From assembly GCF_907164915.1 (NCBI RefSeq), contig NC_061868.1, forward strand, positions 31,586,439-31,650,438: a stretch of 64,000 nt of DNA. Reading direction: 5' to 3'. The DNA comes from Impatiens glandulifera. Lineage: Eukaryota; Streptophyta; Magnoliopsida; Ericales; Balsaminaceae. This document shows positions 6,388 to 55,672 of this stretch, piece by piece; within the stretch, counting starts at the first letter, position 1, and each line of letters opens with the position of its first letter. The position numbers and the translations under genes were made by a program. The notes beneath the pieces are model-generated. The model was given only the letters and a program-made list of their open reading frames with translations. It did no database searches and was not told where the DNA came from.

Positions 6388-8849
6388 TGCACAAACCGGC
6401 CATTTCCTTCAATGCAGCACCATCGTAACACTCATTTTATAAATAATTAAACATCTTATATTCCTTTGTTTTTTATAAATAAATCTTTTAGATATCAATC
6501 TTACTAATGTTTCTATAATAATTGTTAAGATCAAAGAGCCATGAAAAACATCAAGAGTATATCTTCTCTTACAATTCTGATATTCATCGCATTTAGTTTG
6601 ACATTAATTACGACTTATATATGTCGTCAAGAAAAATGTCGAACCAACAAATGTGATGATACTGTTGCCCCGAATCTTTACGATACATAATGTTTCTTTA
6701 GAACATCACGCGACAATATTTTACATAAAAAGAGATTTGAAGGTCTCGTCAATTTAAAACTCTTTAAAGCCTATCCGCCAAATATAACGGGTTTATCACT
6801 TTTAGTACAAAAACTAACTATGAAATATTGTGTTTTAAATTATTATTATGTTCATTTTATTTATTATAGTTTATATTATACAAAGGTGAAATTGGGCACA
6901 ACACCCATAGAATTTAATGTTCAAGCAAAGTGTAGGATCAACACGAACCGACGCGATTCAATACGATATTAATACAAAATGACACGATACAATATTATCT
7001 CACTCGGGTCGTGGGTTGGACACGATACAAGCACGAGACGACACAATCACGACACGATTATGAACTTATACAATTGTAACACTCATTTTATAAATAATAT
7101 AACATCTTATTTAAAAGAATTACTCATATATTCTTTTGTTTTTTTTTATAAAAAATTCTTATTAAATATCACTCTTACTAATGTTTTTATAATAATTGTT
7201 AATATCAAAGAGGTATGAAGATCATCAAGAGTATGTCTTCTCTTAAATTTTATGATATTCATCGCATTTAGTTTGACATTTATTATTACTTATATCGTCA
7301 TGAAAAATGTCCAACCAACAAATATGATGATACCATTGCACCGGATCTTTACAACACATAATGTTTTTTTAGAAGAACTAAGATCACGCCACAATATTTT
7401 ACATAAAAAGAGATTTGAAGGTCTCCTCAATTTAAAACTCTCTGGAGCCTATCCGTCCAATATAACAGGTATATAACTTTTAGTATAAAATTTAACTAAC
7501 TATGAAATATTGTGTTTTAAATTAATATTTTGTTGATTTTATTTATTACAATTTATATTATACGAAGGTGAAATTGAGAACACCACCCCTAGAATTTAAT
7601 GTCCAGGTTAGAGTTGGACGATGAGTTGGATTAACACGAAATGACACGATCTAACACGATATTAGTACATAAAGACACAATACGATTTTATCTCACTCGG
7701 GTCGTGAGTTGAACACGACACAAGGACGAAACAACACGATCAAGACACAATTATGAGTTTATATGATCGTAACACTCATTTTATAAATAATATAAAATCT
7801 TATTTATAAGAATTACTCATGTATACTTTTATTTTATTTTATAAAATTCTTATTAGATATCAATCTTAAAGGTGCCATGAAGATCATCAAGAGTATGTCT
7901 TCTCTTTAAATTTTGGTATTCATCACATTTAGTTGGACATTGATTATGACTTATATCGTCTTGAAAAATGTCCAACCAAAAAATGTGATGATACTGTTAC
8001 ACCGAATCTTTACAGACACATAATATTTCTTTAGAAGATCAGGCAACAATAATTTTATAAAAAGAGATTTGAAGGTCTCGTTAGTTTAAAACTCCCTAGA
8101 GCCTATCCGCCCAATATAACGGGTATATAACTTTTAGTACAAAATTTAACTAACTTTGAAATATTGTGTTTCAAAATTATATTTTGTTGATTTTATTTAT
8201 TATAGTTTATATTATACAAAGTTGAAATTGAGTACAACACCATAAGAATTGAATGTCCAGATAAGAGTTGGGTAATATGTTGGAGTAACACGATCCGACG
8301 CGATCTAACATGATATTAGTATGGAACGAAAAGATACAATATTATCTCACTCGGGTTGTGGGTTGGACATGACACAAACACGAGACGATACGATTACAAC
8401 ACGATTATGAGTTTATACGATTGTAACACTCATTTTACAAATAATATAATAATTATTTTATATTCTTTTGTTTTTTTTATAAAAAATTCTTATTAGATAA
8501 CAATCTTACTAATGTTTCTATAATAATGGTTAATGTCAAAGGAACCATGAAGATCATCAAGAGTATGTATTCTCTTAAAATTTTGACATTCATCGCATTA
8601 AGATTAGTTTGACATTGATTATGACTTATATCGTCATAAAAAGTGTCCAACCAACAAATGTGATGATACCGTTGCACCGGATGTTTACAACACACGTAAT
8701 GTTTCTTTATAAAGAACATAGATCATGCGACACTATATTACATAAAAAGAGATTTGAAGGTCTCGTCAATTTAAAACTCACTTAAGCCTATCCATCCCAT
8801 TTAACAAGTATATAACTTTTAGTACAAAATTTAACTAACTATTAAATAT

Positions 8850-11800
8850 TGTGTTTTGAATTAATATTTTGTTCATTTTATTTATTACAGTTTATATTAT
8901 ACAAATCTGAAATTGAGCACACTACCCGTAGAATTAATGTTCATATTAGAATTGGACAATGAGTTGGATCAACACAAAATTACACGATCCAAAACAATAT
9001 TAGTACGGAACAACACAATATGATTTTATCTAACATGGGTCGTGAGTTGGACACGACACAAACACTAGACCACACGATCATAACACGATTATGTGTTTAT
9101 ACGATCATAACTCTCATTTTATAAATTATATAACATCTTATTTACAAAAATACCCTTATATATATTTTATATTTAAAAAAATTCTTATTAGATATCACTC
9201 TTAAAGGTGCCAAGAAGTTCATAATAGTACGTCTTCTATTAAAATTTTGATATTTATCACATTAAGATGAACATTGATTATGACTTATATCGTCATGAAA
9301 AATGTCCAACCAACAAATGTGAAGATATTGTTGCACCGAATCTTTACGACACATAATGTTTCTTTAGAAGATCACGCAACACTATTTTACATAAAAAGAG
9401 ATTTGAAGTTCTTGTTAATTTAAAACTCTCTGGAGCCTATCCGCCCAATATAACGGATATATAACTTTTAGTACAAAATTTAACATTGAAATTTTGTGTT
9501 TCAAAATTATATTTTGTTGAGTTTATTTATTATAGTTTATATTATACAAAGTTGAAATTGAGTACAACACCCTAAGAATTGAATGTTTAGATAAGAGTTG
9601 GGCAATATGTTGGAGTAACACGATCCGACGCGATCTAACATGATATTAGTATGGAACGACACGATACAATATTATCTCACTCGGGTTGCGGATTGAACAT
9701 GACACAAACACGAGACGATACAATTACAACACGATTATGAGTTTATACGATTGTAACTCTCATTTTATAAATAATATAATAATTATTTTATATTCTTTTG
9801 TTTTTTCATTAAAAATTCTTATTAGATAAAAATCTTACTAATGTTTATATAATAATGGCTAATGTCAAAGGAGCCATGAAGATCATCAAGAGTATGTATT
9901 CTCTTAAAATTTTGACATTCATCGCATTAAGATTAGTTTGACATTGATTATGACTTATATCGTCATAAAAAATGTCCAACTAATAAAATGTGATGATACC
10001 GTTGCACAGGATCTTTACGACACGTAATGTTTCTTTATAAGAACTTAGATCATGCGACACTATTTTACATAAAAAGAGATTTGAAGGTCTCCTCAATTTA
10101 AAACTCTCTAGAGCCTATCCGTCCAATTTAACAGGTATATAACTTTTAGTACAAAATTTAACTAACTATGAAATGTTGTGTTTTGAATTAATATTTTGTT
10201 CATTTTATTTATTACAGTTTATATTATACAAATGTGAAATTGGGCACACTACCCGTAAAATTTAATGTTCATATTAGAATTGGACAAAGAGTTGGATCAA
10301 CACGAAATTACACGATCCAAAACGATATTAATACGGAACGACACAATATGATTTTATCTCCCATGGGTTGTGAGTTGGACACGACACACACACTAGACCA
10401 CACGATCATAACACGATTATGTGTTTATACGATCATAACTCTCATTTTATAAATTATATAACATCTTATTTACAAAAATACTCTTATATATATTTTATAT
10501 TTAAAAATAATTCTTATTAGATATCACTCTTAAAGGTGCCAAAAAGATCATAATAGTATGTCTTCTATTAAAATTTTGATATTCATCACATTAAGATGAA
10601 CATTGATTATGACTTATATCGTCATGAAAAATGTCCAACCAACAAATGTGAAGATATTGTTGCACCGAATCTTTACGACACATAATGTTTCTTTAGAAGA
10701 TCACGCAACACTATTTTACATAAAAAGAGATTTGAAGTTCTTGTTAATTAAAAACTCCCTGCAGCCTATCCGCCCAATATAACGGGTATATAACTTTTAG
10801 TACAAAATTTAACTAACTTTGAAATATTGTGTTTCAAAATTATATTTTGTTGATTTTATTTATTATAGTTTATATTATACAAAGTTGAAATTGAGTACAA
10901 CACCCTAAGAATGGAATGTTTAGATAAGAGTTGGGAAATATGTTGGAGTAACACGATCCGACGCGATCTAACATGATATTAGTATGGAACGATACGATAC
11001 AATATTATCTCACTCGGGTTGTGGATTGAACATGAAACAAACACGAGACGATACAATTACAACACGATTACGAGTTTAAACGATTGTAACTCTCATTTTA
11101 TAAATAATATAATAATTATTTTATATTCTTTTGTTTTTTTATAAAAAATTCTTATTAGATAAAATCTTACTAATGTTTATATAATAATGGCTAATGTCAA
11201 AGGAGCCATGAAGATCATCTAGAGTATGTATTCTCTTAAAAATTTGACATTCATCGCATTAAGATTAGTTTGACATTGATTATGACTTATATCGTCATAA
11301 AAAATGTCCAACCAATAAATGTGATGATACTGTTGCACCGGATCTTTACGACATGTAATGTTTCTTTATAAGAACTTAGATCGTGCGACACTATTTTACA
11401 TAAAAAGAGATTTGAAGGTCTCCTCAATTTAAAACTCTCTAGAGCCTATCCGTCCAATTTAACAGGTATATAACTTTTAGTACAAAATTTAACTAACTAT
11501 GAAATGTTGTGTTTTGAATTAATATTTTGTTCATTTTATTTATTACAGTTTATATTATACAAATGTGAAATTGGGCACACTACCCGTAGAATTTAATGTT
11601 CATATTAGAATTGGACAAAGAGTTGGATTAACACGAAATTACACGATCCAAAACGATATTAATACGGAACGACACAATATGATTTTATCTCACATGGGTT
11701 GTGAGTTGGACACGACACAAACACTAGACCACACGATCATAACACGATTATGTGTTTATACGATCATAACTCTCATTTTATAAATTATATAACATCTTAT

Positions 11801-13430
11801 TTACAAAAATACTCTTATATATATTTTATATTTTAAAAAAATTCTTATTAGATATCACTCTTAAAGGTGCCAAGAAGATCATAATAGTATGTCTTCTATT
11901 AAAATTTTGATATTCATCACATTAAGATGAACATTGATTATGACTTATATCGTCATGAAAAATGTCCAACCAACGAATGTGAAGATATTGTTGCACTGAA
12001 TCTTTACGACACATAATGTTTCTTTAGAAGATCACGCAACACTATTTTACATAAAAAGAGATTTGATGTTCTTGTTAATTAAAAACTCCCTGCAGCCTAT
12101 CCGCCCAATATAACGGGTATATAACTTTTAGTACAAAATTTAACTAACTTTGAAATATTGTGTTTCAAAATTATATTTTGTTGATTTTATTTATTATAGT
12201 TTATATTATACAAAGTTGAAATTGAGTACAACACCCTAAGAATTGAATGTTTAGATAAGAGTTGGGCAATATGTTGGAGTAACACGATCCGACGCGATCT
12301 AACATGATATTAGTATGGAACGATATGATACAATATTATCTCACTCGGGTTGTGGATTGAACATGACACAAACACGAGACGATACAATTACAACACGATT
12401 ATGAGTTTAAACGATTGTAACTCTCATTTTATAAATAATATAATAATTATTTTATATTCTTTTGTTTTTTTATAAAAAATTCTTATTAGTAAAATCTTAC
12501 TAATGTTTATATAATAATGGCTAATGTCAAAGGAGCCATGAAGATCATCAAGAGTATGTATTCTCTTAAAAATTTGACATTCATTGCATTAAGAATAGTT
12601 TGACATTGATTATGACTTATATCGTCATAAAAAATGTCCAACCAATAAATGTGATGATACCGTTGCACCGGATCTTTACGACACGTAATGTTTCTTTATA
12701 AGAACTTAGATCATGCGACACTATTTTACATAAAAAGAGATTTGAAGGTCTCGTCAATTTAAAACTCTCTAGAGCCTATCCGTCCAATATAACATGTATA
12801 TAACTTTTAGTACAAAATTTAACTAACTATGAAATGTTGTGTTTTGAATTAATATTTTGTTCATTTTATTTATTACAGTTTATATTATACAAATGTGAAA
12901 TTGGGCACACTACCCGTAGAATTTAATGTTCATATTAGAATTGGACAATGAATTGGATCAACACGAAATTATACGATCCAAAACGATATTAGTACGGAAT
13001 GACACAATATGATTTTATCTCACATGGGTCGTGATTTGGACACGACACAAACACTAGACCAAACGATCATAACAGGATTATGTGTTTATACGATCATAAC
13101 TCTCATTTTATAAATTATATAACATCTTATTTATAAAAACTACTCTTATATATATTTTATATTTTAAAAAATTCTTATTAGATATCACTCTTAAAGGTGC
13201 CAAGAAGATCGTCAAGAGTACGTCTTCTATTAAAATTTTGATATTCATCACATTAAGATGAACATTGATTATGACTTATATCGTCATTAAAAATGTGGAA
13301 CCAACAAATGTGAAGATATTGTTGCACCGAATCTTTACAACACATAATGTTTCTTTAGAAGATCACGCAACACTATTTTACATAAAGAGAGATTTGAAGG
13401 TCTTATTAATTTAAAACTCTCTAGAGCCTA
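8850..13430 (+). repeat. Dimeric higher-order repeat, period about 1331 bp
   Basis: Within block 1 the short and long monomers amplify together. The exon-2 anchor GAAATTGgGCACACTACCC recurs at 8909, 10236, 11567 and 12897 (steps of about 1327, 1331 and 1330). The dimers look far more alike than adjacent monomers do; for example 10234-10452 and 11565-11783 encode nearly identical 72-residue frames. Confidence 0.85.
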
Positions 13431-13841
13431 TCCTCCTAATATAACGGGTATATAACTTGTTATACAAATTTTAACTAACTTTGAAATATTGTATTTTACT
13501 ATTATATTTTGTTCATTTTGTTTATTATAGTTTATATTATACAAAGGTAAAATTGAGTACAACACCTGCAAAATTTAATATTGAAATTAGAGTTGGACAA
13601 TCATTTGGATCAACAAGAAATGACATGATCCAACACGATATTAGTACTACACAATACGATTTTATCTCACTCAGGTCGTGAGTTGCACACGACATAAACA
13701 CGGAATAACACAATCACAACATGATTATGAGTTTAGACAATCGTAACACTCATTTCATAAATAATATAACATCTTATTTATAAGAATTACTCTTATATTC
13801 TTTATTTTTTATTTAAAATTCTTATTAGATATCACTCTTAA

Positions 13842-14256
13842 ATGTGCCATGAATATCATAAGAATACGTCTTCTCTTAAAATTTTGATATTCATGACATT
13901 TAGTTGGACATTGATTATGACATATATCGTCATGAAAAATGTTCAACCAACAAATGTGATGATACCATTGCACCGGATCTTTACGACACATAATATTTTT
14001 TTAGAAGAACTTAGATCACGCCACAATATTTTACATAAAAAGAGATTTAAAGGTTTTGTCAATTTAAAACTCTCCGGAGCCTATCCGTCCAATATAACGG
14101 GTATATAACTTTTAGTACAATATTTAAATAACTATGAAATATTGTATTTTAAATTAATATTTTGTTCATTTTATTTATTATAGTTTATATTATACGAAGT
14201 TGAAATTGGGCACACCACCCGTAGAATTTAATGTTCATATTAGAGTTAGACAATGA
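13842..14256 (+). pseudogene. Aspartic protease 5' fragment, best-preserved exon 1 plus start of exon 2
   Basis: One monomer shown as a representative. Exon 1 is open from 13842 to 14108: a hydrophobic segment near residues 13-33 (LKILIFMTFSWTLIMTYIVM) like a signal peptide, then a pro-region with PLHRIFTTHN, LEELRSRHNILHKKRF and KLSGAYPSNITG. A GTATATAAC donor follows (about 14100) and the acceptor TTTATTATAG ends at about 14183. Exon 2 then reads LYYxKxKLGTPPVEFNV (the x positions vary between monomers). This order matches the N-terminus of plant A1 pepsin-like proteases (LRxRDxxRHxRxL pro-region, then GLYxTKVxLGTPPxEFxVQxDTGS). The DTGS catalytic motif is replaced by RVRQ/RVGQ-like residues and the rest of the enzyme is absent, so it cannot be an active protease. 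A one-base slip near the ATG shifts this copy's original start. Confidence 0.75.
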
Positions 14257-17053
14257 GTTGGATCAACACGAAATGACACAATCCAAAACGATATTAGTAC
14301 GGAACGACACAATATGATTTTATCTCACTTGGGTCGTGAGTTGGACACGACACAAGCACGAGACAACACAATCACGACACGATTATGTGTTTATACGATC
14401 GTAACTTTCATTTTATAAATTATATAAAGTCTTATTTATAAGAATTACTCTTATATTTTTTTTATTATATAATTCTTATTAGATATCACACTTAAAAGGT
14501 GCCATGGAGATCATCAAGTGTATGCCTTCTATTAAAATTTTGATATTCATCACATTAAGATGAACATTGATTATGACTTATATCGTCATAATAAATGTCC
14601 AACCAACAAATGTGAAGATATTGTTATACCGAATCTTTACAACACATAATGTTTCTTTAGAAAATCACACAACAATATTTTACATAAAAAGAGATTTGAA
14701 GGTCTCGTCAATTTAAAACTCCCTAGAGCCTCCGCCCAATATAACGGGTATATAACTTGTTAAACAAAATTTAACTAACTTTGAAATATTGTGTTTTAAA
14801 ATTATATTTTGTTCATTTTTTTTATTAATAGTTTATATTATACAAAGGTGAAATTGAGTACAATATTTGTAGAATTTAAAGTTCAGATTAGAGTTGGGCA
14901 ATGTGTTGGAGTAACACAAACCAACGCGATTCAACACGATATTAGTACACAACGACATAATACGATATTTTCTCACTCGGGTTGTGAATTGGAAATGAGA
15001 CAAATACAAGACGACACGATCACGACACAATTATGAGTTTATACGATTGTAACACTTATTTTATAAATAATATAATAATTATTCTTATATTCTTTTGTAT
15101 TTTTTATAAAAAATTCTTATTAGATATCACTCTGACTAATAATTCTATAATAATTGTTAATGTCAAAGGATCCATGAAGATCATCAAGTGTATGTCTTTT
15201 CTAAAAATTTTTATATTCATCGCATTTAGTTTGGCATTGATTATCAATTTATATCGTCATTACAAATGTCCAACCAACAAATGTGATGATACTATTGCAC
15301 CGGATTTTTACAACACATAATGTTTATTTAGAAGAACTAAGATCATTCCACAATATTTTACATAAAAAGAGATTTGAAGGTCTCGTCAATTTAAAATTCT
15401 CTGGAGCTTATCCGTCCAATATAACGGGTACTAACTTTTAGTACAAAATTTAACTAACTATGAAATATTGTGTTTTAAATTAATATTTTGTTCATTTTAT
15501 TTATTACAGTTTATATTATACGAAGGTGAAATTGGGAATACCATCCGTAGAATTTAATGTCCAGGTTAGAGTTGGACGATGAGTTGGATCAACTGTAAAT
15601 TACACGATCTAACACGATATTAGTACAGAAAGACAAAATACAATTTTATCTCACTCGGGTCGTGAGTTGAACACGACACAAGGACGAAACAATACGATCA
15701 CGACACGATTATGAGTTTATACGATCGTAACACTCATTTATAAATAATATAACATCTTATTTATAAGAATTACTCATGTATACTTTGCCATGAAGATCGT
15801 AAAGAGTTTGTCTTCTCTTAAAATTTTGATATTCATCACATTTAGTTGGACATTGATTATGACTTATATCGTCTTGAAAAATGTCCAACCAAAAATTGTG
15901 ATGATACTGTTGCACCGAATCTTTACGACACATAATATTTCTTTAGAAGATCACGCAACAATAATTTTCATAAAAAGAGATTTGAAGGTCTCGTTAATTT
16001 AAAACTCCCTGAAGCCTATCCGCCCAATATAACGGGTATATAACTTTTAGTACAAAATTTAACTAACTTTGAAATATTGTGTTTCAAAATTATATTTTGT
16101 TGATTTTATTTATTATAGTTTATATTATACAAAGGTGAAATTGAGTACACCACCCGTATAATTGAATGTTCAAATAAGAGTTGGGCAATATGTTGGAGTA
16201 ACACGAACCAACGCGATCTAACATGATATTAGTATGGATCGACACAATACAATATTATCTCACTCGGGTTGTGGGTTGGACATGACACAAACACGAGACG
16301 ATACGATTAAAACACGATTATGAGTTTATACGATTGTAACACTCATTTTATAAATAATATAATAATTACTCTTATATTCTTTTGTTTTTTATTATAAAAA
16401 GTTCTTATTAGATAACAATCTTACTAATGTTTCTATAATAATAGTTAATGTCAAAGGAGCAATGAAGATCATCAAGAGTATGTCTTCTCTTAAAATTTTG
16501 ACAATCAATGCATTACGATTAGTTTGACATTGATTATGACTTATATCGTCATAAAAAATGTCCAACCAACAATTGTGATGATACCGTTGCACCGGATCTT
16601 TACGACACGTAATGTTTCTTTATAAGAACTTAAATCATGCAACACTATTTTACATAAAAAGATATTTGAAGGTCTCGTCAATTTAAAACTCTCTAGAGCC
16701 TATCCGACCAATATAATAAGTATATAACTTTTAGTACAAAATTTAACTAACTATGAAATGTTGTGTTTTGAATTAATATTTTGTTCATTTTATTTATTAC
16801 AATTTATATTATACAAAGGTGAAATTGGGTACACTACCCGTATAATTTAATGTTCATATCAGAATTGGACAACGAGTTGGATCAACACGAAATGACACGA
16901 TCCAAAAGAATATTAGTACAGAACGACACAATATGATTTTATCTCACATCGGTCCTGAGTTGGACACGACATAAATACTAGACCACACGATCATAATACG
17001 ATTATGTGTTTATACGATCATAACATTCATTTTATAAATTATATAACATCTTA

Positions 17054-17104
<51 letters not shown>

Positions 17105-18265
17105 ATGCTTAATTTTTAAAGTGTCCGGATTGCCGGGTCGAGAGCTGTGGTTAATTTGGATATATATGTGAGAGTAAATGAATAATTGGGTCGGATTGTG
17201 GGTTGACCCGCCCATAAACTTAAAACGTTTAAAAATAAAATTAAAAGTGCTATAGGTATGGTTCGAACTTGCAACCTAACAAAAACAAGTACAACTCTTT
17301 AACCAACTAGGCCAACAACACTTTATAATTAAGATTCAACACCAAATTTGATGAACGCGAGACATTATAACAATAAAAGTTCAAATTTTTAACTAACTAA
17401 TCTATATATATATATATATATATATATATAATGATGCTTAATTTTTAAAGTGTCCGGATTGCCGGGTCGAGAGCTGTGGTTAATTTGGATATATATGTGA
17501 GAGTAAATGGATACTTGGATCGGATTGTGGGTTGACCCGCCCATAAACTTAAAACGGTTAAAAATAAAATTAAAAATGCTATAGGTATGGTTCGAACTTG
17601 CAACCTAACAAAAACAAGTACAACTCTTTATCCAACCAGGCCAACAACACTTTATATTTAAGATTCAACACCAAATTTGATGAACGCGAGACATTTTAAC
17701 AATAAAAGTTCAAATTTTTAACTAACTAATCTATAAATATATATATAATGATGCTTAATTTTTAAAGTGTACGGATTGCCGGGTCGAGAGCTGTGGTTAA
17801 TTTGGATATATATGTGAGAGTAAATGGATACTTGGGTCGGATTGTGGATTGACCCGCCCATAAACTTAAATCGGTTAAAAATAAAATTAAAAATGCTATT
17901 TTTATGTTTCGAACTTGTAACCTAACAAAATAAGTACAACTCTTTAGCAAACTAGGCTAACGACACTTTATATTTAAGATTCAACACCAAATTTGATGAA
18001 CGCGAGATATTTTAAAAATAAAAGTTCAAATTTTTAACTAAATAATCTATATATATATAATCATGCTTAATTTTTAAATTGTCCGGATTACCGGGTCGAG
18101 AGTTGTGGTTAAATTGGATATATATGTGAGAGTAAATGGATATTTGGGTCGGATTGTGGGTTTACCCGCCCATAAACTTAAAACGGTTAAAAATCAAATT
18201 AAAAGTGTTATTTGTATGTTTCGAACTTGCAACTTAACAAAATAAGTACAACCTTTAACAAGTGT
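17054..18265 (+). repeat. Four tandem Helitron-head units of about 316-347 bp
   Basis: Each unit shares GTGTCCGGATTGCCGGGTCG, a GGGTTGACCCGCCC block and a TTCGAACTTGCAACC block. Read on the minus strand, the first two show a Pol III-like A box (TGGCCTAGTTGG, 17303-17314; variant at 17632-17643) and B box (AAGTTCGAACC, 17260-17270 and 17589-17599). Long TA tracts (17056-17102, 17403-17430) mark the heads. The last unit is cut short. Confidence 0.85.
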
Positions 18266-18642
18266 TATTGAGATGTGATTTGCCGAGGGATAATAAGCCG
18301 GTATCATTTGAAAATGGTTAAACAAATATGAATCAAATATTTGATTGACCAAAGTGTGAGGTCACGATGCTAATTTTTAAAAAATACGAATGAAATATTT
18401 GATTGACAAAGTGAAAGTGTAAAGTCACGAGATGAGAGATTCATTCGGAAAAAATATGGTATGAAACATGTGAGAAAATAAGTTGTTTTTCCGAATTGAA
18501 TAAAATGTGAATGAGCGTTCTATTTTTATTTAAATATATTATTCGTAATTTATTAAAATTGTAAATATTGAATACATATTATTAAAATTTTTTAATTTAT
18601 TTTGTTTTTATTCTTATCTGTGTGCATCCGAAATTTTCCTGG
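17054..18642 (+). mobile_element. Helitron-like element inserted in the array
   Basis: It begins TCTATATATA after a host A and ends TTTTCCTGG before a host T, the A|TC...CTRR|T arrangement of Helitrons. The host monomer rejoins exactly when it is removed (ACATCTTA + TTTATAAG), with no target duplication. It contains four successive units, each starting TCTATA(TA)n and GATGCTTAATTTTTAAA (17054, 17401, 17730, 18046; periods 347, 329 and 316), then a unique 3' part. No Rep/helicase gene is present, so it is non-autonomous. I found no convincing GC hairpin just before the 3' end, which lowers confidence. Confidence 0.6.
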
Positions 18643-27649: not shown

Positions 27650-27651
27650 AG

Positions 27652-35702: not shown

Positions 35703-35816
35703 GGCCCTTGGCCATTTTATCTCATTCTTACGCGAATCGGCTTTCTCTTTCTAGATCTCAAATCTCTCAAAATCTCTCAAAACAGTTGTCTTGCTCTCTC
35801 GACTCGATCATCAACA

Positions 35817-42758: not shown

Positions 42759-42870
42759 TTTCCCCATTTTTGATGATTTAAGCTAATTAATCAAAATCAA
42801 TTGTGTTCATTTAATCTCAAAAAATTTCCCTTTTTGATGATGTTATAACTATGCAATCTTAAATAAAATA

Positions 42871-42875
42871 GTGTA
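42871..42875. repeat. Target-site duplication GTGTA of the nested Sirevirus derivative
   Basis: GTGTA at 42871-42875 recurs at 44749-44753, immediately outside the TGTTAG...TAACA ends. Confidence 0.85.
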
Positions 42876-44660
42876 TGTTAGGATCTAGATCGCGGCTGGC
42901 GGATCGGGGTCTGGCCGGTTAGCGCGTCTCACTCAAAGGGTGGTGATTAATCCGGTTAAAGATTAACACCGGAGTTTCAATACTACACAAACTGTCACAA
43001 ACCCTTGAACCAGGTTCAAGCGCGGAAGAGGTTTGTTTCAGGTTGAAGCAGCACACTCACAAGATAGGCAGAACCGGTTTTGAATAAGATAGGTTTGGAG
43101 TTTGCTGGGTCGGTTTTGCAACTCAGTAAGTCGGTTTAGATGGTGTTGAATCGGTTAGAGCGGTATGAATAGGTTAGTACAGATCGGTTAGAATGTAGAA
43201 CCGGCGGAAAGTAAATAACAAGACAGGTTTTTATGGATGTTCGGAGATAAAACTCCTACGTCACCCCTTCCTCTTGAAACCGCGAGAAGGATATTCACTA
43301 AGGAATACTCACACAATCCGATCGAGACTTATTTCATGCTCGATAACACAATCCGATCGAGACTTATTTCCTGCTCGATAACACCCGTACAATTTTAATC
43401 GAAGTTGTAATCTAACTTCAAATACACACTTGAGCTCTTAATCTTAGAGAGATGAAACACAATTTGTGACATAGGTTGTAGAAAACTCTCAGAACTTGTA
43501 ACCACTGCATTCATTCCTCTTCAACACCTTCTTTTATAGGTGAAATGTGCCAACGGTCACATTTCATTTCCTTGAATCTGATTGGTTGAGCAGAGGTTCA
43601 GTGATTCAGATCTGGAGGTCAAATCTTCAGACATGACGGTCAAACCGGCTAGGTTTGTCCTTTACTCAATATGGCAACTGTCGGTTGGACAGTTACCTGC
43701 ACTTGGAAGGTTGCACCTCTGACTTATCCCAGAGTGGAAATATCTCTTTAGGCAATCTTCTGCAGCCTGCAGAGTATCATCAGACTTGTATGGATATGGC
43801 AATGTCACAGTCTGATCATTTAATGTTATCTTCTGTAGATACCCAAAGTATCTGTTTGCACCGATTTGTAAGCTGTACTTAGTTTGATATTCTTGACTTC
43901 TTTCTCTAAGTAGTATTCTCATCGGTTTTCCGGTTGGATACTATATTTCGGTTTAGGATGTCTACCGGTTGTTCATGGCTTCAGGTTAACCGGATAACTT
44001 CCGATTTCGGATACATACTTTGCTTCTTCTTCTAATCGGTTTGATTACTTGACCGGTTGGATTCTTGACCGGTCAGATTCTTGACCGTTCCTCATAACTT
44101 CAGGTTTGTTTATTTGCTTTCTTCTTGCCGGTTTGATATTCAACCTGATAACTTCAGGTTTGTTCATTTGCTTCTTCTGGCCGGTTTGATATTCTGACCT
44201 AATAACTTCAGGTTTGTTTATTTGCTTCTTCTGGCTGTTTGATATTCTGACCTGATAGATTTCTTGACCGTTCTTTCGGTTTAAAACTCAACCGGTCCTG
44301 AACTTGAACCTGTCCGGATTTTTGCACATAGGTTGAACCTGTCCGAATTTTTGCACACAGGTTGAACCTGTCCGGATTTTGAACTTCTTGACCGAACGCT
44401 TTGACCGAGCTTCTTGACCGAACTCCGGTTGACTGAGCCGGTATACATTGTCGAGCCGATCTTACCTATAGGTAAATTTCAGATTTTGCTCAGCTTCCCT
44501 GAAATAGCAAAACTTTAAATATTATTTGCAGTCGGTGAGATTTGATCCTTGGTCACCTGTGTGACAGGCATGGGTGTTTACCACTACGCTACAGCACCTT
44601 CTTGATATATTTAAACCAATTAATATACTTGATATGACTTAACGGTTTATTTTTCTAACA
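42876..44660 (-). repeat. LTR of the nested Sirevirus derivative (about 1785 bp)
   Basis: The minus strand shares with the element Y LTR the ACCGTTGGCACATTTCACC-TATAAAAG promoter block (near 43530-43565), the duplicated ATCGAG...CTCGAT palindrome (43318-43388), the GGGGTGACGTAGGAG block (43253-43267) and the terminal GATCCTAACA-like end. Its first 700 bases are unlike Y: they are rich in repeated CCGGTC, AACTTCAGG and TTGACCG words (43920-44450). Confidence 0.85.
44529..44602 (-). repeat. tRNA-like (SINE-head-like) sequence inside the LTR
   Basis: The minus strand contains an A-box-like TAGCGTAGTGG (44591-44581) and a B-box-like GGATCAAATCTC (44548-44537) at tRNA spacing. A short stem CCTG/CAGG lies between them. 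It could be a tRNA-derived SINE head or a captured tRNA relic. The acceptor stem does not pair well, so it is not a functional tRNA gene. Confidence 0.5.
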
Positions 44661-44885
44661 ATTTCTCCCTTTTTGATTATTTAGAATAAATATTCAAAAC
44701 TTGTAATCGTTGGCCAGTTTAAAATTGACTTACTTAATTTTTCTAACAGTGTAAACACCCATCAAATATGATTGAAATCAAAATAGGGACTTGTTTGAGT
44801 CATTGCTATCAAATCTTAAACAGAATTTATATCTGACAGGCTTCAACAGACTAATCTGATATTTGACAGCTTCTCTAGACCTTGT

Positions 44886-46208
44886 TCAAGAATTTATAAT
44901 GTAGGTTAAACGTTGGTTTTCAGAAGAGAGGATTTGAATCTTTTCTTTGAGCATTTCATTCTCAGATGAAAGCTCATCCATGTTTTCAAAAACTTTTGAC
45001 TCGAAGGTTTGAGAAAAAGGCGGTTCATCATTTTCAAATTCTGAACTTTTTTTTTTGAGATTTTCACAGTTTTTATACTCCGAGACTATATCATTTAGTA
45101 CAGCCACTACTTCATCTCGTGAAAAATCCTCTGGAGAGAGATCCAATACCTCAGATTCCTCAGATTATTCCTCTTCTCTTTCCATGAAGCAAGCAACCTC
45201 TTCATCATCACTATCGCTGGATGATGAGTAATCTGAGTCGCTTTGCATCCATTTGGCCTTGCTGTCGGCCGCAATGAGGGCCTTCAACTTGCCTTCATTG
45301 TCTTTCTTCTTCTCATCACGTTTCGGTTTTTTGCACTCCGACTTGTAATGACCTAGAATACCACAGTTCAAACACGTAACATTATCTTTTGATTTAGCTT
45401 TATCATCATTGGTGTTATTTGAAGAGCTTGAGTTAGGAATGCTCTTCTTCATGTATTTCTCGAATTTCTTCACGAGAGGAGCCATTGCGTCGCTGCTGAG
45501 CTACTTGGCAGACGCCTTTTCTTCATTGGCAACAAATGACTCCTCGGAAGACACCAAAGCCTTGGTAATGATAGCAGATGTGGGGTGCTCCTCTTCATTC
45601 CTCGAGTTCAACTCAAACTCATAGGCCTTCAAATCGACAAACAAGTCGAAGAACTCCATCTTATTAAGGTCTTTGGACTCCCTCATCGTCATAGTCTTGA
45701 TGTCCCACTCCCTAGTTAAAGCTCGCAGGACCTTTATATCAATCTCTCTGTTGCTGTAGGTCTTGCCAAGGATGGATAGGGTGGTGACAATATAACTGAA
45801 TCTTGCATCAAACTCAGTCATCGTCTCTTCTGGACGCAACTTGAAGTTGTCAAACTATTGGGTGGCAACCGTGATCTTGTTCTCTTTAGTTTGCACGTTG
45901 CCTTCACAGAGTTGAGTGAGTCTGTCCTAAATTTCTTTGGTAGACTCGCAAGAAATGATGTAGTTTAACATGCTGTCGTCAAGGGATCTGTACAAGATGT
46001 CCATGGCCAAGTTGTCGAGGTTGTTCTTCCTCTGATCTTCAATTGTCCATTCAGATTTTTCTTTGTCGATCTTGATGGGTCCTTTAGTGACAACACTCCA
46101 CATGTCATCGTGCAAGGAAGCAAGATGGGCACAAACTCTTTTCTTCTACACCATGTAGTTTTCTTTCGAAAATATAGGAATCTTGGAGGAACTGGCATCT
46201 TTCGACAT
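44886..46208 (-). pseudogene. Gag of element X, five in-frame stops
   Basis: One minus-strand frame of 441 codons from the ATG at 46208 (MSKDASSSKIPIF) to the stop at 44886, with five internal stops but no frameshift. It resembles the gag of element Y: TIEDQRKNNLDNLA versus TAEDRRKNNLDNHA, and REWDIKTMTMRES versus SAWDIKTMVMRES. The capsid-like region is followed by a CCHC zinc knuckle CLNCGILGHYKSEC (about 45383-45342) and an acidic Ser/Asp-rich segment. The C-terminal frame (45146-44886) is a predicted coiled coil (SSENEMLKEKIQILSSENQR). Gag would package RNA into particles and could use pol supplied by a related Sirevirus; that is inference. Confidence 0.9.
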
Positions 46209-46245
46209 GATTTAGGTTCTTGTTGCTTGAGAATAGAAAACAAAG

Positions 46246-46257
46246 CTCTGATACCAA
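46246..46257 (-). promoter_or_regulatory. Primer-binding site of element X
   Basis: The minus strand reads TGGTATCAGAGC, next to the LTR edge at 46259, identical to the other PBS sites here. Confidence 0.9.
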
Positions 46258-46258
46258 T

Positions 46259-48080
46259 TGATAGGATTGGTGCAATCAATAGAGACGGGGTTTTTACTAT
46301 TGTTAGAAACTTCAGATAAACGGATTGATAGAAATCCTGTTAAGGATTAATATCACTTTCTATTCTTCGCAAACCTTCACAAACTCATGAAATGATTCAA
46401 GTGCGGAGCTGTTTGTTTGGGTTTGAAGCTTTGAACCAATGAATGATGAAAGACTGAAGGTAAAGAACACAACAAGTTGTTTATGGATGTTCAGAGCTAT
46501 CTCTCCTACGTCACCCTTTCTTCCAACAACTAGAAGGATTTCACTAAACTTCTTTGAATCAAATACAACTTACTAAATAGCTAACACTTTGTTAAACAGA
46601 ACACACTATGTTCAACTTACAATATAATCAATAATATCTCTCAGCAAGACAGTGTTTTTGATTCTCTCTCTTAAACTTGAAAATGATGTACAATTAGTAA
46701 GTGCAAGAGTGATGAGTAAGATTGTAGGAAATGAGCAGAGTAACCAGTGATTCGGTCGTTGTCCTTGAGCATTTATTTGTAGGAGAAGGACACCAACGGT
46801 CGAATCTTATTCATGGACACGTGACAATCGCCCATTGGAAAGCCTCCATAGTACAAGAGTACAATAGACTCTATGCTCATGGATCGTGGCCGTAATGAAT
46901 GGTAGTGCACCGGATATCCTTCTGGAACTGTCTTGTACTGAACAAGTAGTATGAGGGATATCTGCGTACGTGGCGTTCATTCGTTTGATGCAAATAGCTG
47001 GCGTACTAGTCTACAAGAGAAAGTGGAGCAGGAGTAGCGTACAACTAGTTGAATGTGGGTAGACGTAAGCTAACATCAAACGGCTACTGAAGCGAGGCAA
47101 TAGACGTGCCCCATTAGACTTTCAAGTCTAAGGGAGTTAGACGCCAATGTTTAACAGCGAGTTCCACTAGACCACCAAGTCTAATGGAGTTAGACTACCA
47201 CGTCAAATGGAGTTAAACTACATCGTCTAACTACATACCACTTCAGACTAATCTGAAGGAGTTAGACGCCAACGTCTAACTACGTGTCTATTAGACTTGC
47301 ACGTCTAACTACGTATCTGTTAGACTGACACGTCTAACTATGTATTTGTTAGACTGGCACGTCTAACTACATATCTGTTAGATTGGCACGTCTAACTATG
47401 TATCTGTTAGACTTGCACGTCTAACTATGTATCTGTTAGACTGGCACGTCTAACTACATATCTGTTAGACTGACACGTCTAACTACGTATCTGTTAAACT
47501 GGAACGTCTAACTACGTATCTGTTAAACTAACACGTCTAATTACGTATTTGTTAGACTGACACGTTTAACAGATAACACGTCTAATTATCCTACTTAGAC
47601 CACGTCTACGTATCTGTTAGACTGACACGTCCAACTATGTGTCTGTTAGATTGGCACGTCTAAGTACATATCTGTTAGATTGGCACGTCTAACTATGTAT
47701 CTGTTAGACTTGTACGTCTAACTATGTATCTGTTAGACTGGAACGTCTAACTACGTATCTATTAGACTGACACGTCTAACTACGTATCTGTTAAACTGGA
47801 ACATCTAACTATGTATCTGTTAAACTAACACATCTAATTACGTATCTATTAGACTGACACGTCTAACTGATAACACGTCTAATTAGCCTGCTTAGACCAC
47901 GTCTAAGTTAGCCAAATCTGATGCACCTGCATAGAAATAATTAGACGACTTAGCTTCGTTCATATTTAAACATCATCAAAACTCAATTGATTAATATTTA
48001 GCATTTTCTGTTAATTAACTCTTTACTAAAATTTTCCAAACAATTTGTTCTAAGTTAATAACTCTTAATTTTTCCAAACA
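46259..48080 (-). repeat. 5' LTR of element X (1822 bp)
   Basis: The minus strand starts TGTTTGGAAAAATTAAG at 48080 and ends with CCTATCA at 46259. It contains two blocks of 29-bp palindromes (47280-47580 and 47600-47885, the second a partial duplication of the first) and the GTGACGTAGGAG block at 46503-46517. Confidence 0.85.
47100..47885. repeat. 29-bp palindromic minisatellite, third locus
   Basis: About 20 units of GTTAGAC, six bases, GTCTAAC joined by TACGTATCT, in two blocks separated by ATCCTACTTAGACCACG. Confidence 0.9.
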
Positions 48081-48540
48081 GATCATAACACTCATTTTAT
48101 AAATTATATAAAATATTATTTATAAGAATTACTCTTATATTCTTTTTATTTTATTTTATAAATTTTTTATTAGATATCACTCTTAAAGGTGCCATGAAGA
48201 TCATCAAGAGTATGTCTTCTCTTAAATTTTTGATATTCATCACATTTAGTTGGACATTAATTATGACATATATCGTCATGAAAAATGTCCAACCAACAAA
48301 TGTGATGTTACTGTTGCAGTAAATCTTTACGACACATAATGTTTCTTTAGAAGATCACACAACAATATTTTACATAAAATAATATTTGAAGGTCTCGTCA
48401 ATTTAAAACTCTCTAGAGCCTATCTCCTCAATATAACGAGTATATAATTTTTAGTACAAAATTTAACTAACTTTAAAATATCGTGTTTTAAAATTATAAT
48501 TTGATTATTTTATTTATTACAATATATATATATATATATT
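48081..48540 (+). repeat. Protease-derived tandem array, block 4 (partial monomer)
   Basis: Resumes in the leader segment (TAACACTCATTTTATAAATT), runs through an exon-1-like segment (ATGAAGATCATCAAGAGTAT at 48194) and the intron, and stops at the ACAATATATA acceptor region, where a TA microsatellite begins. Confidence 0.95.
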
Positions 48541-49831
48541 GGGAAAAACGACTTAGCGTCATTTCATTAAAAATTCCCAAAAATAGGAAAAAAAACCAAA
48601 AGTTTAAGAGATCATTCTAGACAGGCCTAGAATGATTTTGAAGTCGTAACATTCTGAATAAAAGCTAAAAATGTAAATGAGTTATCTGTTTCAAATGTTT
48701 TCAATTCTAGTGAGTTTAAAAAATAGTAAACTCCAGTTACTGCAGATATTCTAGTTATGCTCCGTGCTTGGAATTCCTCTTCACGTTCTCGCGAGGGCGC
48801 TACAATCCTATACAATATCTTTCCATAACTCGTCAATGCTCCTGTGGGTTTTGTCATATACCCTTGCATTCCGTTCTTGCCAAATGTTATACACCACTAC
48901 TCCAAAGACGCACTTGAATACACTTGTTGTAAATCTATTTCCCTTGGCTTTTAGTAGTGTTGCTTCCTTGATTTCATTCCATTCGCTCGGGAAACTAATC
49001 AACTCCAGGCTTTTATAGAATCTGTCCCAAAGTTCTGAAGCAATACAGTAGATCCCGAATATGTGATCTATGACTTCTTCTATTCATATGCATAGAAGAC
49101 AACTCGCGTCCGAGATACTCATATACTTGCTGATACGATCACGAGTGATGATTCATTCCCAAAAAGAGAGCCATAGGATGAACTGGTGTCGAGGGATAAT
49201 ATTCGTTGACCATACAAGAGGAGCCCATTCTACTTTCTGCGCCTTTTCCCAGATTACCTCCCCTATTTTCTTCAATACCAGTTTCCCATTGTCCTCAGCT
49301 TTCCATTCATGAATATCCGTTTTGTCGTGTAGTTGTATGTTACTTATATGATCAAGTATCCTCTTTCCTTCTGGAATTCTTCTCAAGAGCAAGTTCCAAT
49401 TCCCGTCTTTGATGTCTCTGATTTTCGCTTTTGCGTAATCCCTTCTGATACGGGTATTTTGAAACTCATCCTTGTCGATGATAGACTGGTTTTCGAACCA
49501 GGGGTCGTGCTAGAATAGAGTGCCTTTCCTGTCCTCTAGTCGGATGTCATAAAGATCTGCAATATCGCTTCTTAGTTTAAGAATCTTTTTCAAAGACCAG
49601 CTCATACCTTCGTGAATTTTGCAGGTCTAGATGCCGGTTTCGTATTTCATAAACCTCGTATGCACCCATTTGATCCATAGTGAATCCTGATTGCGCTCCA
49701 AAGCCCACATATGCTTGAAGGTTAGAGCCTTATTCCACTCGATACAATTCTTCAAGTCGATGCCTCCCTCGTCCTTCAGTTTGCAGAGAACGGTCCATTT
49801 GACTTTCTTTCCTCCTCTTCCACTACTACCC
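48541..49831 (-). pseudogene. LINE (L1-type) fragment, 3' part of the RT protein, minus strand
   Basis: Minus-strand frames, interrupted by stops, give a plant LINE RT C-terminus: KVKWTVLCKLKDEGGIDLKN and NKALTFKHMWALERNQDSLW (49833-49627), then EWAPLVWSTNIIPRHQFILW (about 49230-49170), the start of the zinc-binding RT domain, and VVVYNIWQERNARVYDKT near the end (48890-48840). The element is 5'-truncated at 49831 and its 3' end meets a (TA)n run at about 48522-48539 in the array. It is dead by truncation and stops. Confidence 0.8.
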
Positions 49832-52800
49832 ATACAAAGGTGAAATTGGACACACCACTAATAGAATTTAATGTTCAAATTACAGTTGGGCAATGGGATG
49901 GATCAATACGAACCGACGCGATCCAACACGATATTATATCACTCGGATTGTGGGTTGGACATGACACAAGCACGTGACGATACGATCACGAGTTTATACA
50001 ATCGTAACATTCATTTTATAAATAATATAATAATTACTCTTATATTATTTTATTTTATTTATAAAATATTGTTATTAGAGATATCACTCTTACTAATGTT
50101 TCTATAATAATTGTTAATGTCAAAGGAGCCATGAAGATCATCAAGATTATGTCTTCTCTTAAAATTTTGACATTCATCGCATTTAGTTTGACATTGATTA
50201 TGAGTTATATCGTCATGAAGAATGTCCAAGTAAAAAATGTGAGGATACCATTGCATTAAATCTTTACAACACATAATGTTTCTTTAGAAGATCACACAAT
50301 AATATTTTACATAAAATAATATTTGAAGGTCTCGTCAATTTAAAATACTCTAGAGCCTATCTGCTCAATATAACGGGTATATAACTTTTAGTACAAAATT
50401 TAACTAACTTTAAAATATTGTGTTTTAAAATTATAATTTGATCATTTTATTTATTACAATATATATTATACAAAGATGAAATTGGACCCATCACCAATAG
50501 AATTTAATAGAATTTAATGTTCAAATTACAGTTGGGCAATGTGATGGATCAACACGAATCGACGTGATCCAACACAATATTATATTACTCGGATTGTGGT
50601 TGGACATGACACAAGCACGAGACAACACGATCACGAGTTTATACGATCGTAACACTCATTTTATAAATAATATAATAATTACTCTTATATTATTTTATTT
50701 TATTTTTATAAATTTTTTTATTAGATATTACTCTTACTAATGTTTCTATAATAATTATTAATGTCAAAGGAGTCATGAAGATCATCAAGAGTGTGTCTTC
50801 TCTTAAAATTTAGACATTCATCGCATTTAGTTTGACATTGAGTATGAGTTATATCGTCATAAAGAATGTACAACTAACAAATGTGATGATACCATTGCAC
50901 CAAATCTTTAAAACACATAATGTTTCATTATAAGAACTTAGATCACGCAACAATATTTTTCATAATATTTCTTTAGAAGATCACGCAATAATGTTTTACA
51001 TATAAATAGATTTGAAGGTCTCATTAATTTAAAACTCTTGAGAGCCTATCCGTCCAATATAATGGGTATATAACTTTTAGAAAAAAATTTAACTAACTTT
51101 GAAATATTGTGTTTTAAAATTATATTTTGTTCATTTTATTTATTACAATATATATTATACAAATGTGAAATTGGGCACACAACTAGTAAATTTATATTTA
51201 GATTGAAGTTGGACAATGTGTTGGATTAACAAGAACCGACGTGATTCAACATGATATTAGTACAGAAAGACACAATACAATATTATTTCACTCATGTTGT
51301 GGGTTGGACATAACACAAGTACGAGACGACACGATTATGAGTTTATACGATCGTAACACTCATTTAATAAATAATATAATAATTACTCTTATATTCTTTT
51401 GTTTAAAAAAAATTATTATTAAATATCACTATTACTAATGTTTTGATAATAACTGTTAATGTCAAAGGAGCCATAAAGATCATCAAGAGAATTTCTTCTC
51501 TTAAAATTTTGATATTCATCGCATTTAGTTTGACATTGATATGACTTATATCGTCATGAAAAATTTCCAACAAGCAAATGTGATGATACCATTGCACCAA
51601 ATTTTTACAACACATAATGTTTCTTTATAAGAACTTAGATCACACGACAATATTTACATAAAAAGAGATTTGAAGGTCTTGTCAATTTAAAACTCTCTAA
51701 AGCCTATCCGTCCAATATAACAAGTATATAACTTTTAGTAAAAAATTTAACTAACTATGAAATATTGTGTTTTAAATTAATAATTTATTCATTTGATTTA
51801 TTACAGTTTATATTATACAAAGGTGAAATTGGGCACACCACCTGTAGAATTTAATGTTCTGGTTGAGTTGGACAATGAGTTGGATTAGCACAAAATGACA
51901 CGATCTAACATGATATTAGTAAGAAACGACACATTATGATTTTATCTCACTCCGGTCGTGAGTTGAACACGACACAAGCACAAGACAACATGATTATAAG
52001 TTTTTACGATTGTAACACTCGTTTTATAAATAATATAATATCTTATTTATAAGAATTACTCTTATATACTTTTATTTTATTCTATAAAATTCTTATTTTA
52101 TATCACTCTTAAAAGTGTCATGAACATCATCAAGAGTATATGTTCTCTTAAAATTTTGATATTCATCACATTTAGTTGGACATTGATTGTGACTTATATC
52201 GTCATGAAAATGATCAACCAAGAAATGTGATGATACTATTGCACCAAATCTTTACGACACATAATGTTTCTTTAGAAGATCACACAACAATATTTTACAT
52301 AAAAAGAGATTTGAAGGTCTCGTCAATTTAAAACTCCATAGAGCCTATCCGCCCAATATAACGGGTATATAACTTTTAGTACAAAATTTAACTAACTTTA
52401 TAATATTGTGTTTTAAAATTATATTTTGATAATTTTATTTATTATAGTTTATAATATACAAAGGTGAAATTGAGTACAACACCTGTAAAATTTAATGTTC
52501 AGATTAAAGTTGGGCAATATGTTGGAGTAACACGAACCGACGTGATCCAACACGATATTAGTACGGAATGACATTATACAATATTATCTCAATTGAGTTG
52601 TGGGTTCAAATGACACAAGCACGAGACGACACGATCACGATACGATGATGAGCTTATACGACTGTAACACTCCTTTTATAAAAACATAAAAATTAATCTT
52701 ATATTCTTTTGTTTTTTTTATAACAAATTCTTATTAGATATCACTTTTACTAAGTTTCTATAATAATTGTTAATGTCAAAGGATCCATGAAGATCATCAA

Positions 52801-55672
52801 GAGTATGTATTCTCTTAAAATTTTGATATTTATCGCATTTAGTTTGACATTGATTATGACTTATATCGTCATGAAAAATATCAAACCAACAAATGTGATG
52901 ATACCGATGCATCGTATCTTTACGACACATTATGTTTTTTAATAAGAACTTAGATCACGCGACAATATTTTACATAAAAAGAGATTTGAAGGTCTCGTCA
53001 ATTTAAAACTCTCTAGAGCCTATCTGTCCAATATAACGGGTATATAACTTTAAGTACAAAATTTAACCAACTATGAAATATTGTGTTTTAAATTAATATT
53101 TTGTTCATTTTATTTATTACAGTTTGTATTATACAAAGGTGAAATTGGACACACCACCCATAGAATTTAATGTTCTGATTATAGTTGGACAATGAGTTGG
53201 ATCAACACAAAATGACAAGATCCAACACGATATTAGTACGGAACGACACAATATGATTTTATCTCACTTGGGTCGTGAGTTGGACACGACACAAGCACGA
53301 GAAAATACGATCACGACACGATTATTAGTTTATATGATCGTAACACTCATTTTATAAATAATATAACATCTTATTTATAAGTATTAATTTAATAATCTTT
53401 TTATTTTATTTTATAAAATTCTTATTTGATATCACTCTTAAAGGAGGTGCCATGAAGATCATCAGGAGTATGTCTTCTCTTAAAATTTTGATATTCATCA
53501 CAATTAGTTGACATTGATTATGACTTATATCGTCATGAAAAATGTCCAACCAACAAATGTGATGTTACTATTTCACTGAATCTTTACGACACATTATGTT
53601 TCTTTAGAAGATTGCACAACAATATTTTACATAAAAAGAGATTTGAAGGTCTTGTCAATTTAAAACTCTCTAGAGCCTATCTTCCCAATATAACGGGCAT
53701 ATAACTTTTTATACAAAATTTAACTAACTTTGAAATATTGTGCTTTAAAATTATAATTTGAACATTTTATTTATTACAATATATATTATACAAAGGTGAA
53801 ATTGGGCACACCAATAGTATAATTTAATGTTCAAATTACCGTTGGGCAATGGGATGGATCAACACGAACTAACACGATCCAACACGATATTATCTCACTC
53901 GGGTTGTGGGTTAGACATGACTCAAGCACGAGACGACACGATCATGTGTTTATACGGTCATAACCCTCATTTATAAATAATATTATAATTACTCTTATAT
54001 TCTTTTAATTTTATATAAAATATTCTTATTAGATATCACTCTTATTAATGTTTCTATAATAATTGTAAATGTCAAAGGAGCCATGAAGATCATCAAGGGT
54101 ATGTCTTCTCTTAAAATTTAGACATTCATCGCATTTAGTTTGACATTGATTATGAGTTATATCGTCATGAAGAATGTCCAAATAACAAATAGATGATACC
54201 ATTGCACCAAATCTTTACGACACATAATGTTTCTTTATAAGAACTTAGATCACGCGACAATATTTTACATAAAATATATTTGAAGGTCTCTTCAATTTAA
54301 AATTCTCTGGAGCCTATCCGTCCAATATAACAAGTATATAACTTTTAGTACAAAATTTAACGAACTATGAAATATAACTTTTAGTACAAAATTTAACTAA
54401 ATATGAAATATTGTGTTTTAAATGAATATTTTGTATTACAGTTTATATTATACAAAAGTGAAATTGGGCACACCACCCATAAAATTCAATGTTCAAATTA
54501 GAGTTGGATAATGAGTTGTATCAATACGAAATGAGATGATCCAACACGATATTAGTACGGAACGACACAATACGATTTTATCTCACTCGGGTCATGAGTT
54601 GGACACGATACAACACGATCACGACATAATTATGAATTTATACGATCGTAACACTCATTTTATAAATAATATAACATCTTATTTATAAGAATTACTCTTA
54701 TATTCTTTTTATTTATTTTATAAAATTCTTATTAGATATCACTCTTAAAGGTGTGATTAAGATCATCAAGAATATGTCTTCTCTTAAAATTTTGATATTC
54801 ATCACATTTAGTTAGAGATTGATTATGACTTATATCGTCATGAAAAATGTCCAACCAACAAATGTGATGATACTGTTGCACCGAATCTTTATGAAACATA
54901 ATGTTTCTTTAGAAGATCACGCAACAATATTTTACATAAAAAGAGATTTGAAGGTCTCGTCAATTTTAAACTCTCGAGAACCTATCTGCCCAATATAACG
55001 GGTATATAACTTTTAGTACAAAATTTAACTAACTTTGAAATATTGTGTTTTAAAATTATATTTTGTTCATTTTATTTATTACAATATGTATTATACAAAG
55101 ATAAAATTGGGCACACCACTAGTAGAATTTAATGTTCATAGTTGAGCAATATGTTGGAGTAACACGAACCGACGCAATCCAACACGATATTAGTACGGAA
55201 CGATACGATACGATATTATCTCACTCGAGTGGTAGGTTGGACATGACATAAACACAAGACGATACGATCATGACATGATTGTGAGTTCATACGATTTTAA
55301 CACTCTTTTTATAAATAATTACTCTTATATTCTTTTGTTTTTTTTTATAAAAAATTCTTATTAGATATCACTCTTACTAATATTTCTATAATAATTTTTA
55401 ATGTCAAAGGAGCAAGGAAGATCATCAAGAGTATGTCTTCTTTTAAAATTTTGATATTCATCGCATTTAGTTTGACATTATTATGACTTATATCGTCATG
55501 AAAAATGTCCAACCAACAAATGTGATGATACAGTTGCACCGGATCTTTACAACACATACCTTTTCTTTATATGAACTTACATCACAAGACAATATTTTAC
55601 ATGAGAAGAGATTTGAATGTCTCATCAATTTAAAACTCTTTAGAGTCCTTCCGTCCAATATAACATGTATAA
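49832..55672 (+). repeat. Protease-derived tandem array, block 5 (about 9 monomers, most diverged)
   Basis: Anchors lie near 50324, 51012, 51667, 52312, 52983, 53639, 54280, 54949 and 55610. Monomers are more diverged from one another than in blocks 1-3 and carry local duplications (for example 50930-51000 and 54350-54400). The array ends at about 55672, at the exon-1/intron boundary (GTCCAATATAACATGTATA). Confidence 0.93.

Follow-up and report, generated by a model that had tools for sequence, protein, structure and literature searches.

A tandem array in Impatiens glandulifera with similarity to the start of an aspartic protease gene and to a hAT-like transposon end

The origins of new satellites are usually reconstructed from transposons alone. 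Passages of PMC12628747 describe satellites that grow from short arrays inside transposons, as well as tandemised plant Helitrons. Here we analyse a tandem array in a 64,000-nucleotide stretch of Impatiens glandulifera DNA (contig NC_061868.1, C7 below, positions 31,586,439-31,650,438), which we call the window. The first three quarters of its monomer match the start of an A1 aspartic protease gene, and the last 155-160 bp or so are the end of a hAT-like transposon. We consider it probable that the repeated unit is a chimera of the two. It would have arisen by insertion of the transposon into the gene and by tandem duplication, followed by transfer to C7 and expansion there.

The array and its monomer

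With a single monomer as the nhmmer query (E of 1e-5 or better) we find 45 segments between positions 6428 and 55671 of the window, all on the plus strand and head to tail. They add up to 26,552 bp. We refer to the 33 segments of at least 600 bp as full monomers. Once pieces of the same monomer are merged, our own count comes to about 42 monomers. A monomer profile with a cut-off of E 1e-2 gives 46 plus-strand matches and 15 short, weak matches on the minus strand. The latter lie within the same monomers and come from a partly self-complementary stretch.

The array has a period of about 655 bp, and the majority consensus of the monomer is 655 bp long. This consensus holds an open exon-1 frame of 84 codons (MKIIKSMSSLKILIF...LEELRSRNNILHKKRFEGLVNLKLSRAYPSNIT), then an intron-like stretch of about 83 bp and then LYYTKVKLGTPPVEFNVQI in a different frame. 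The splice donor of the consensus is short of one G (ACGGGTATAT), and a frameshift would result from splicing at this donor. None of the 33 full C7 monomers has an open exon 1, and these monomers look pseudogenic. Divergence at the first, second and third codon positions of exon 1 is 0.069, 0.064 and 0.080, a sign, at best faint, of coding constraint.

A preliminary description of this DNA had proposed a giant satellite of about 41 monomers, with 28 kb of monomer spread over 49 kb. The tandem array itself holds up in number, in length and in its span of about 49 kb, and it contains homogenised sub-blocks with dimeric and trimeric higher-order repeats. "Giant satellite", however, is too strong. 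A 26-base exon-1 pattern, with 3 mismatches or fewer, has 39 matches in the genome (654 Mb, 1110 contigs). Of these, 35 lie at the C7 locus and two each at 6.84 Mb and 13.24 Mb on contig C5. Its reversed control matches once. Large genomic abundance would mean many or long arrays. Here we see one locus with 26.6 kb of monomer and two mini-arrays, in an assembly that may be incomplete and with a pattern that tolerated only 3 mismatches.

The gene start and the transposon end

Sequence comparison supports the 5' part of the unit as the 5' end of an intron-rich plant A1 aspartic protease gene. It runs from exon 1 through intron 1 into the start of exon 2. We searched a database of 5.8 billion sequences with a 104-amino-acid consensus, padded to let full-length proteins become candidates. 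The sole match among the 51 candidates scored comes from Forsythia ovata (E 1.3e-3); this protein is annotated as an aspartyl protease and has the domains TAXi_N, TAXi_C and Asp. Compared pairwise, the two are 45% identical across 69 amino acids of the pro-region and first strand (E 2e-14). The alignment ends at NVQI, and the protease continues with DTGSD. What is left does not amount to a working enzyme: the fragment has no Pfam TAXi or Asp match, and the sequence stops ahead of the catalytic DTG. The stretch ahead of the ATG is presumably the gene's own 5' flank, an assignment made from its position and not from comparison with genes.

The Forsythia protein has at least 97 matches in the Impatiens genome (86 of 525 candidates scored). 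We fetched nine protease loci with separate exons from this genome. In seven of them (L047, L048, L050 and L052-L055) exon 1 ends GG/GT, the slash marking the exon boundary, and exon 2 starts AG/N, then (L/I)Y. The intron in these seven loci is in phase 2 and lies exactly at the place of the monomer intron; L049 and L051 were not resolved. The donor of the monomer, GG/GTATATAA, is also that of L048, which lies at C5:3.53 Mb. When nine short sequences were compared, L048 and the monomer were 63-64% identical in the DNA of the intron/exon-2 region (E 8e-11). With a C5 copy of the unit as the reference, the best-scoring proteins are L047 (157) and L048 (141), and the others reach 89-117. Five loci with A1 protease exons of the monomer type (L047-L051) lie inside 0.65 Mb of C5 (3.53-4.17 Mb), a contig they share with both mini-arrays.

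The preliminary description had derived the monomers from the start of an A1 protease gene, intron included. The significant protein match, obtained by the consensus search that it had suggested, bears this out, as do the position and phase of the intron in seven of nine loci of the same genome. The direct parent gene, also sought there, was not found. The order of parts that it gave for the monomer is right for the exon-1 frame, the intron-like stretch and the start of exon 2, all of which are present in the consensus; it does not hold for the donor, which lacks one G, or for the last 155 bp or so, which are not gene. Finally, the gene part had been said to stop exactly where DTGS should be. 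It does end just before DTG: its last two bases belong to the Ile codon in front of Asp-Thr-Gly. The unit is not purely genic, however, and the gene part stops there because a hAT-like transposon end starts.

In 31 of the 33 full monomers this junction carries TAGAGTTGG, with no more than 2 mismatches. Our query for the 3' part consisted of the last 155 bp or so together with the five gene bases before TAGAG and seven bases over the next junction. It gave 1270 first-look candidates in the genome. We scored 40 of them, 16 being on C7. The other 24 copies are 88-91% identical and are found on contigs C1, C2, C3, C5, C6, C9 and C1040. For 15 of them similarity starts exactly at the T of TAGAG, and for the other nine within the five gene bases, where the query has its limit. 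Four dispersed copies that we fetched all begin their similarity at TAGAG and have nothing evidently in common upstream (alignment judged by eye).

One dispersed copy was read from end to end. It is 1807 bp long, has short terminal inverted repeats (TAGAGTTGG...CCAACTCTA) and carries a perfect 8-bp duplication, GTACCAAG, on both flanks. Short terminal inverted repeats of this form are typical of hAT ends. Judged by this general rule and by the duplication length in the one copy, the dispersed element has the form of a non-autonomous hAT transposon.

The two mini-arrays on C5 (6,835,886-6,843,466 and 13,238,795-13,240,754) each hold two units and a partial one. These units carry about 300 bp of the transposon, more than the C7 monomers do. 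Three of the four C5 copies keep the fourth G at the donor (GCGGGG/T), with the phase as in the genes, and two have open frames of 111 amino acids. We considered the CCAACTCTA sites in the C5 loci as outer transposon ends and rejected this reading, since some of them, at the least, fall within the subterminal region.

History of the unit and alternative explanations

In the history that we propose, the gene would supply about 100-120 bp of presumed 5' flank and everything from exon 1 to base 57 of exon 2, intron 1 included. The first 160 bp or so of a non-autonomous hAT-like transposon would supply about a quarter of the monomer. The exact terminus suggests that the transposon inserted in exon 2 and broke the protease gene, and the unbroken gene would be expected to read GTTCAGATTGA at the junction site. 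A tandem duplication may then have brought the 5' flank of the gene next to the interior of the transposon, at a point about 300 bp inside the terminus. The resulting unit of roughly 720-800 bp would survive in the C5 mini-arrays, which we observe directly; their place in the order of events is conjectural. A derivative lacking about 100 or more bp of the transposon and one donor G would then have reached C7. On C7 the unit has expanded to about 42 copies and left dimeric and trimeric higher-order repeats, with unequal exchange, as usual, the probable cause.

Several results weigh against this history. No close parent gene was found: when the consensus protein was compared with the genome (all 131 candidates scored, 140 matches), the exon-1 matches beyond the C7 array and the two C5 sites were 27-38% identical, the best of them lying at C5:3721522 (E 0.0017). 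The other junction predicted by the insertion, namely transposon end, duplicated target and the rest of exon 2, was not found in the 654 Mb; a search at 2 mismatches gave 1 match, as did its reversed control. The 8-bp duplication comes from a single copy. No transposase is linked to the TAGAGTTGG-ended family, and the hAT-type transposase open reading frames (ORFs) in the window have other candidate ends, CAGTGCTGTCAAAATCG. The fourth donor G is missing in one of the four C5 copies, and the acceptor is damaged in some. The fragment alone has no match in Pfam or PDB even at E 10, because too little of the domain remains. Lastly, the two C5 loci may be a segmental duplication or one large mobile element.

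The homology to the gene and the position of the intron are real, and they would also be expected of a satellite that arose from the protease gene start alone, with decayed gene or spacer as its 3' part. This explanation is already contradicted by the dispersed copies and the terminus, and we regard it as very unlikely. The last 155 bp or so recur off C7 on seven contigs, C5 among them, the 3' part starts at a transposon terminus, and the Forsythia protein past the Ile codon aligns to the monomers only with stops or mismatches. A Pack-type transposon that captured a gene fragment and spread it would account for the fusion of gene fragment and transposon end at three loci. We hold this to be extremely unlikely. 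The gene lies outside the transposon, whose outer edge is TAGAG and whose ACACGA subterminal region faces away from the gene. This arrangement speaks for a transposon that inserted into the gene and against one that captured it. Furthermore, we find the gene part nowhere but at C7 and the two C5 sites, while the transposon end occurs in dispersed copies.

Alternatively, the unit could be part of a larger mobile element of about 15-20 kb, such as a Helitron, with short internal arrays, and the C7 array could have formed by rolling-circle amplification. The two C5 loci (L009-L016; 6.82-6.84 and 13.22-13.24 Mb), although 6.4 Mb apart, share about 14.7 kb around the mini-arrays, in nine roughly collinear pieces of 77-96% identity. 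Growth of element-internal arrays into satellites, especially in Helitrons, is also a route described in passages of PMC12628747. Nevertheless, we think such an origin unlikely. By eye, no terminal repeats or target duplications are recognised at the ends of the shared block, much of which consists of nested copies of the same small, 1.8-kb hAT-like element in both orientations. The C7 window with 10 kb on each side shows the monomer and none of the remaining block (E 1e-10). There is next to no chance that the array is a tandem cluster of short functional genes derived from the protease, for example for secreted peptides. The open exon 1 of the consensus, the open frames of two C5 copies and the slightly higher divergence at third codon positions would fit such genes, but we reject a coding function of the C7 array because not one full monomer keeps the frame. 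An unpadded search with the 104-amino-acid consensus found no short relatives among database proteins.

If our proposed chimera is right, it bears on how satellites arise. We give even weight to the broader view that a transposon insertion in an exon can found a satellite, half a gene and a transposon end being amplified together, and that the array may act as a bank of transcription starts. The protease relatives, the mini-arrays of two units and a partial one and the array of about 42 copies, all in one genome, are in keeping with this view. The array may be such a bank because each monomer presumably carries the gene's 5' flank. Any effect of the C7 array would be putative, via chromatin or RNA. 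The order of events is directly testable, since the genome that holds the expanded array with its two kinds of higher-order repeat also has short arrays, the transposon and genes related to the donor. The array points to a way in which a transposon that breaks a gene may give rise to satellite-like DNA. It also shows that where a repeat ends exactly on an active site, the end may be no functional boundary but simply the footprint of an insertion.

Array blocks, insertions and other features of the window

The array falls into four blocks (Table 1), in which we assigned monomer classes by reading the tree by eye. Among the dimers of block 1, the last three are 97-98% identical among copies and the first is 91-95% identical. 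The trimer B-C-A spans 20568-42409 and is in register on both sides of the copia-type insertion. Distances among the compared copies are K 0.017-0.036 for classes B, C, a and b and K 0.019-0.064 for class A. Set against the distance between the long terminal repeats (LTRs) of the copia-type element, these values suggest that the trimer was amplified at about the same time as the insertion or earlier. The blastn identity of these LTRs, 92% with indels counted, prompted the idea of gene conversion across the element after its insertion. We rejected it: K80 gives 0.027, similar to many higher-order copies, so no sequence exchange across the element is needed.

Table 1. Coordinates of the example monomer (20568-21243), the array blocks and the insertions, in window positions
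Feature	Position	Strand	Basis and remarks
Stretch before ATG, mostly presumed 5' flank	20568..20689	+	consensus-to-monomer mapping; flank origin judged from position
Exon-1 remnant, ATG at 20690, frame broken in example monomer	20690..20946	+	consensus mapping
Intron-1 remnant (GTATGT...TTACAG)	20947..21029	+	position and phase as in loci L047, L048, L050, L052-L055
Exon 2, first 57 bp; consensus codes LYYTKVKLGTPPVEFNVQ and two bases of Ile codon	21030..21086	+	ends just before catalytic DTG codons
hAT-like terminus (TAGAGTTGG...) and ACACGA-rich subterminal part	21087..21243	+	dispersed-copy comparison and consensus mapping
Array block 1	6428..17016	+	16 monomers, 15 of at least 600 bp; nhmmer
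Dimeric higher-order repeat in block 1	7772-13092	+	classes a-b, four times; tree of monomers
Insertion with 329-bp tandem repeat (17086-18259)	17017..18697	.	relatives near C5 copy B, outside shared block
Array block 2	18698..26425	+	12 monomers; trimer classes B-C-A from 20568; nhmmer and tree
Copia-type retrotransposon, 13.7 kb, extra long ORFs	26426..40057	+	inside A-class monomer; aligned LTR parts K = 0.027
Array block 3	40058..42409	+	trimer goes on in register (B C A B) past copia-type insertion
LTR-like element, 352-bp direct terminal repeats (K = 0.10), contains 29-bp GTTAGACT tandem repeat	42404..48078	.	interrupts the array at 42.4-48.1 kb
Array block 4	48088..55671	+	13 segments, more diverged (83-91% to nearest), several rearranged
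1.3-kb insertion	48529-49816		within block 4, splitting one monomer

The copia-type element has Pfam matches to rve, gag_pre-integrs and others at 29.5-31.2 kb. The best 120 of 4685 protein matches of its ORF come from Tanacetum, Primulina, Citrus, Centaurea and others, at 37-61% identity. The extra ORFs lie 3' of the integrase ORF (33266-38440); one is weakly Transposase_32-like, below the cut-off, and one of 649 amino acids has no Pfam match. A 29-bp tandem repeat (GTTAGACTGACACGTCTAACTACGTATCT) occurs at 1011-1594, 42403-42544 and 47261-47868, and two of these sites are at or beside the ends of one LTR-like element.

Outside the array, the hexamer AGGTGA is perfectly repeated 30 times at 4891-5070. 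A separate hAT element is likely at 59129-62630, where ORFs with DUF659 and Dimer_Tnp_hAT are found and the frame is in pieces. Its candidate ends are CAGTGCTGTCAAAATCG and CGATTTTGACAGCCTTG, one of four candidate end pairs, with the 8-bp duplication AGTCTACC.

Comparison with known systems

Satellites derived from transposon-internal arrays or transposon ends appear in passages of PMC12628747 and PMC4079207, the latter on the Tetris foldback element of Drosophila virilis. As in these satellites, a transposon end forms part of the monomer here, and a short-array form (C5) coexists with an expanded standalone form (C7). The difference is that about three quarters of the monomer derive from a protein-coding host gene, whose 5' end is present together with an intron. 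Neither "gene fragment" nor "exon" appears in the main text of the reviews PMC12628747 and PMC9659126. Plant satellites from ribosomal DNA spacers or retrotransposon repeats, as portrayed in parts of PMC2679016 and PMC7004042, are likewise known genomic sequence made tandem. In contrast to these, the source here is a protease gene and a DNA transposon end, and the array sits at one locus.

Groups I and II of the A1 proteases are intron-rich, according to a portion of PMC9937552. Our own assignment of the monomer to group II (the A36/A39 side) is made because of this richness in introns. With that group the monomer shares the pro-region, the intron before (L/I)YYTK and the GTPPxEFNV strand, as found in the multi-exon loci of the same genome. 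Unlike group II proteases, the monomers are without the catalytic DTGS and all that lies beyond, and the C7 copies are frame-broken. The transposon part resembles non-autonomous hAT elements in its dispersed copies, in short inverted ends from TAGAG and in the target duplication of 8 bp, seen in the single copy read to both ends. Unlike a whole element, each monomer holds one end only, of about 160 bp.

In the literature searched, with a limited library and limited terms, we found no description of a plant satellite made of a protein-gene start and a transposon end. The array is a real and instructive case of satellite birth linked to a transposon, on a smaller scale than the preliminary description had held.

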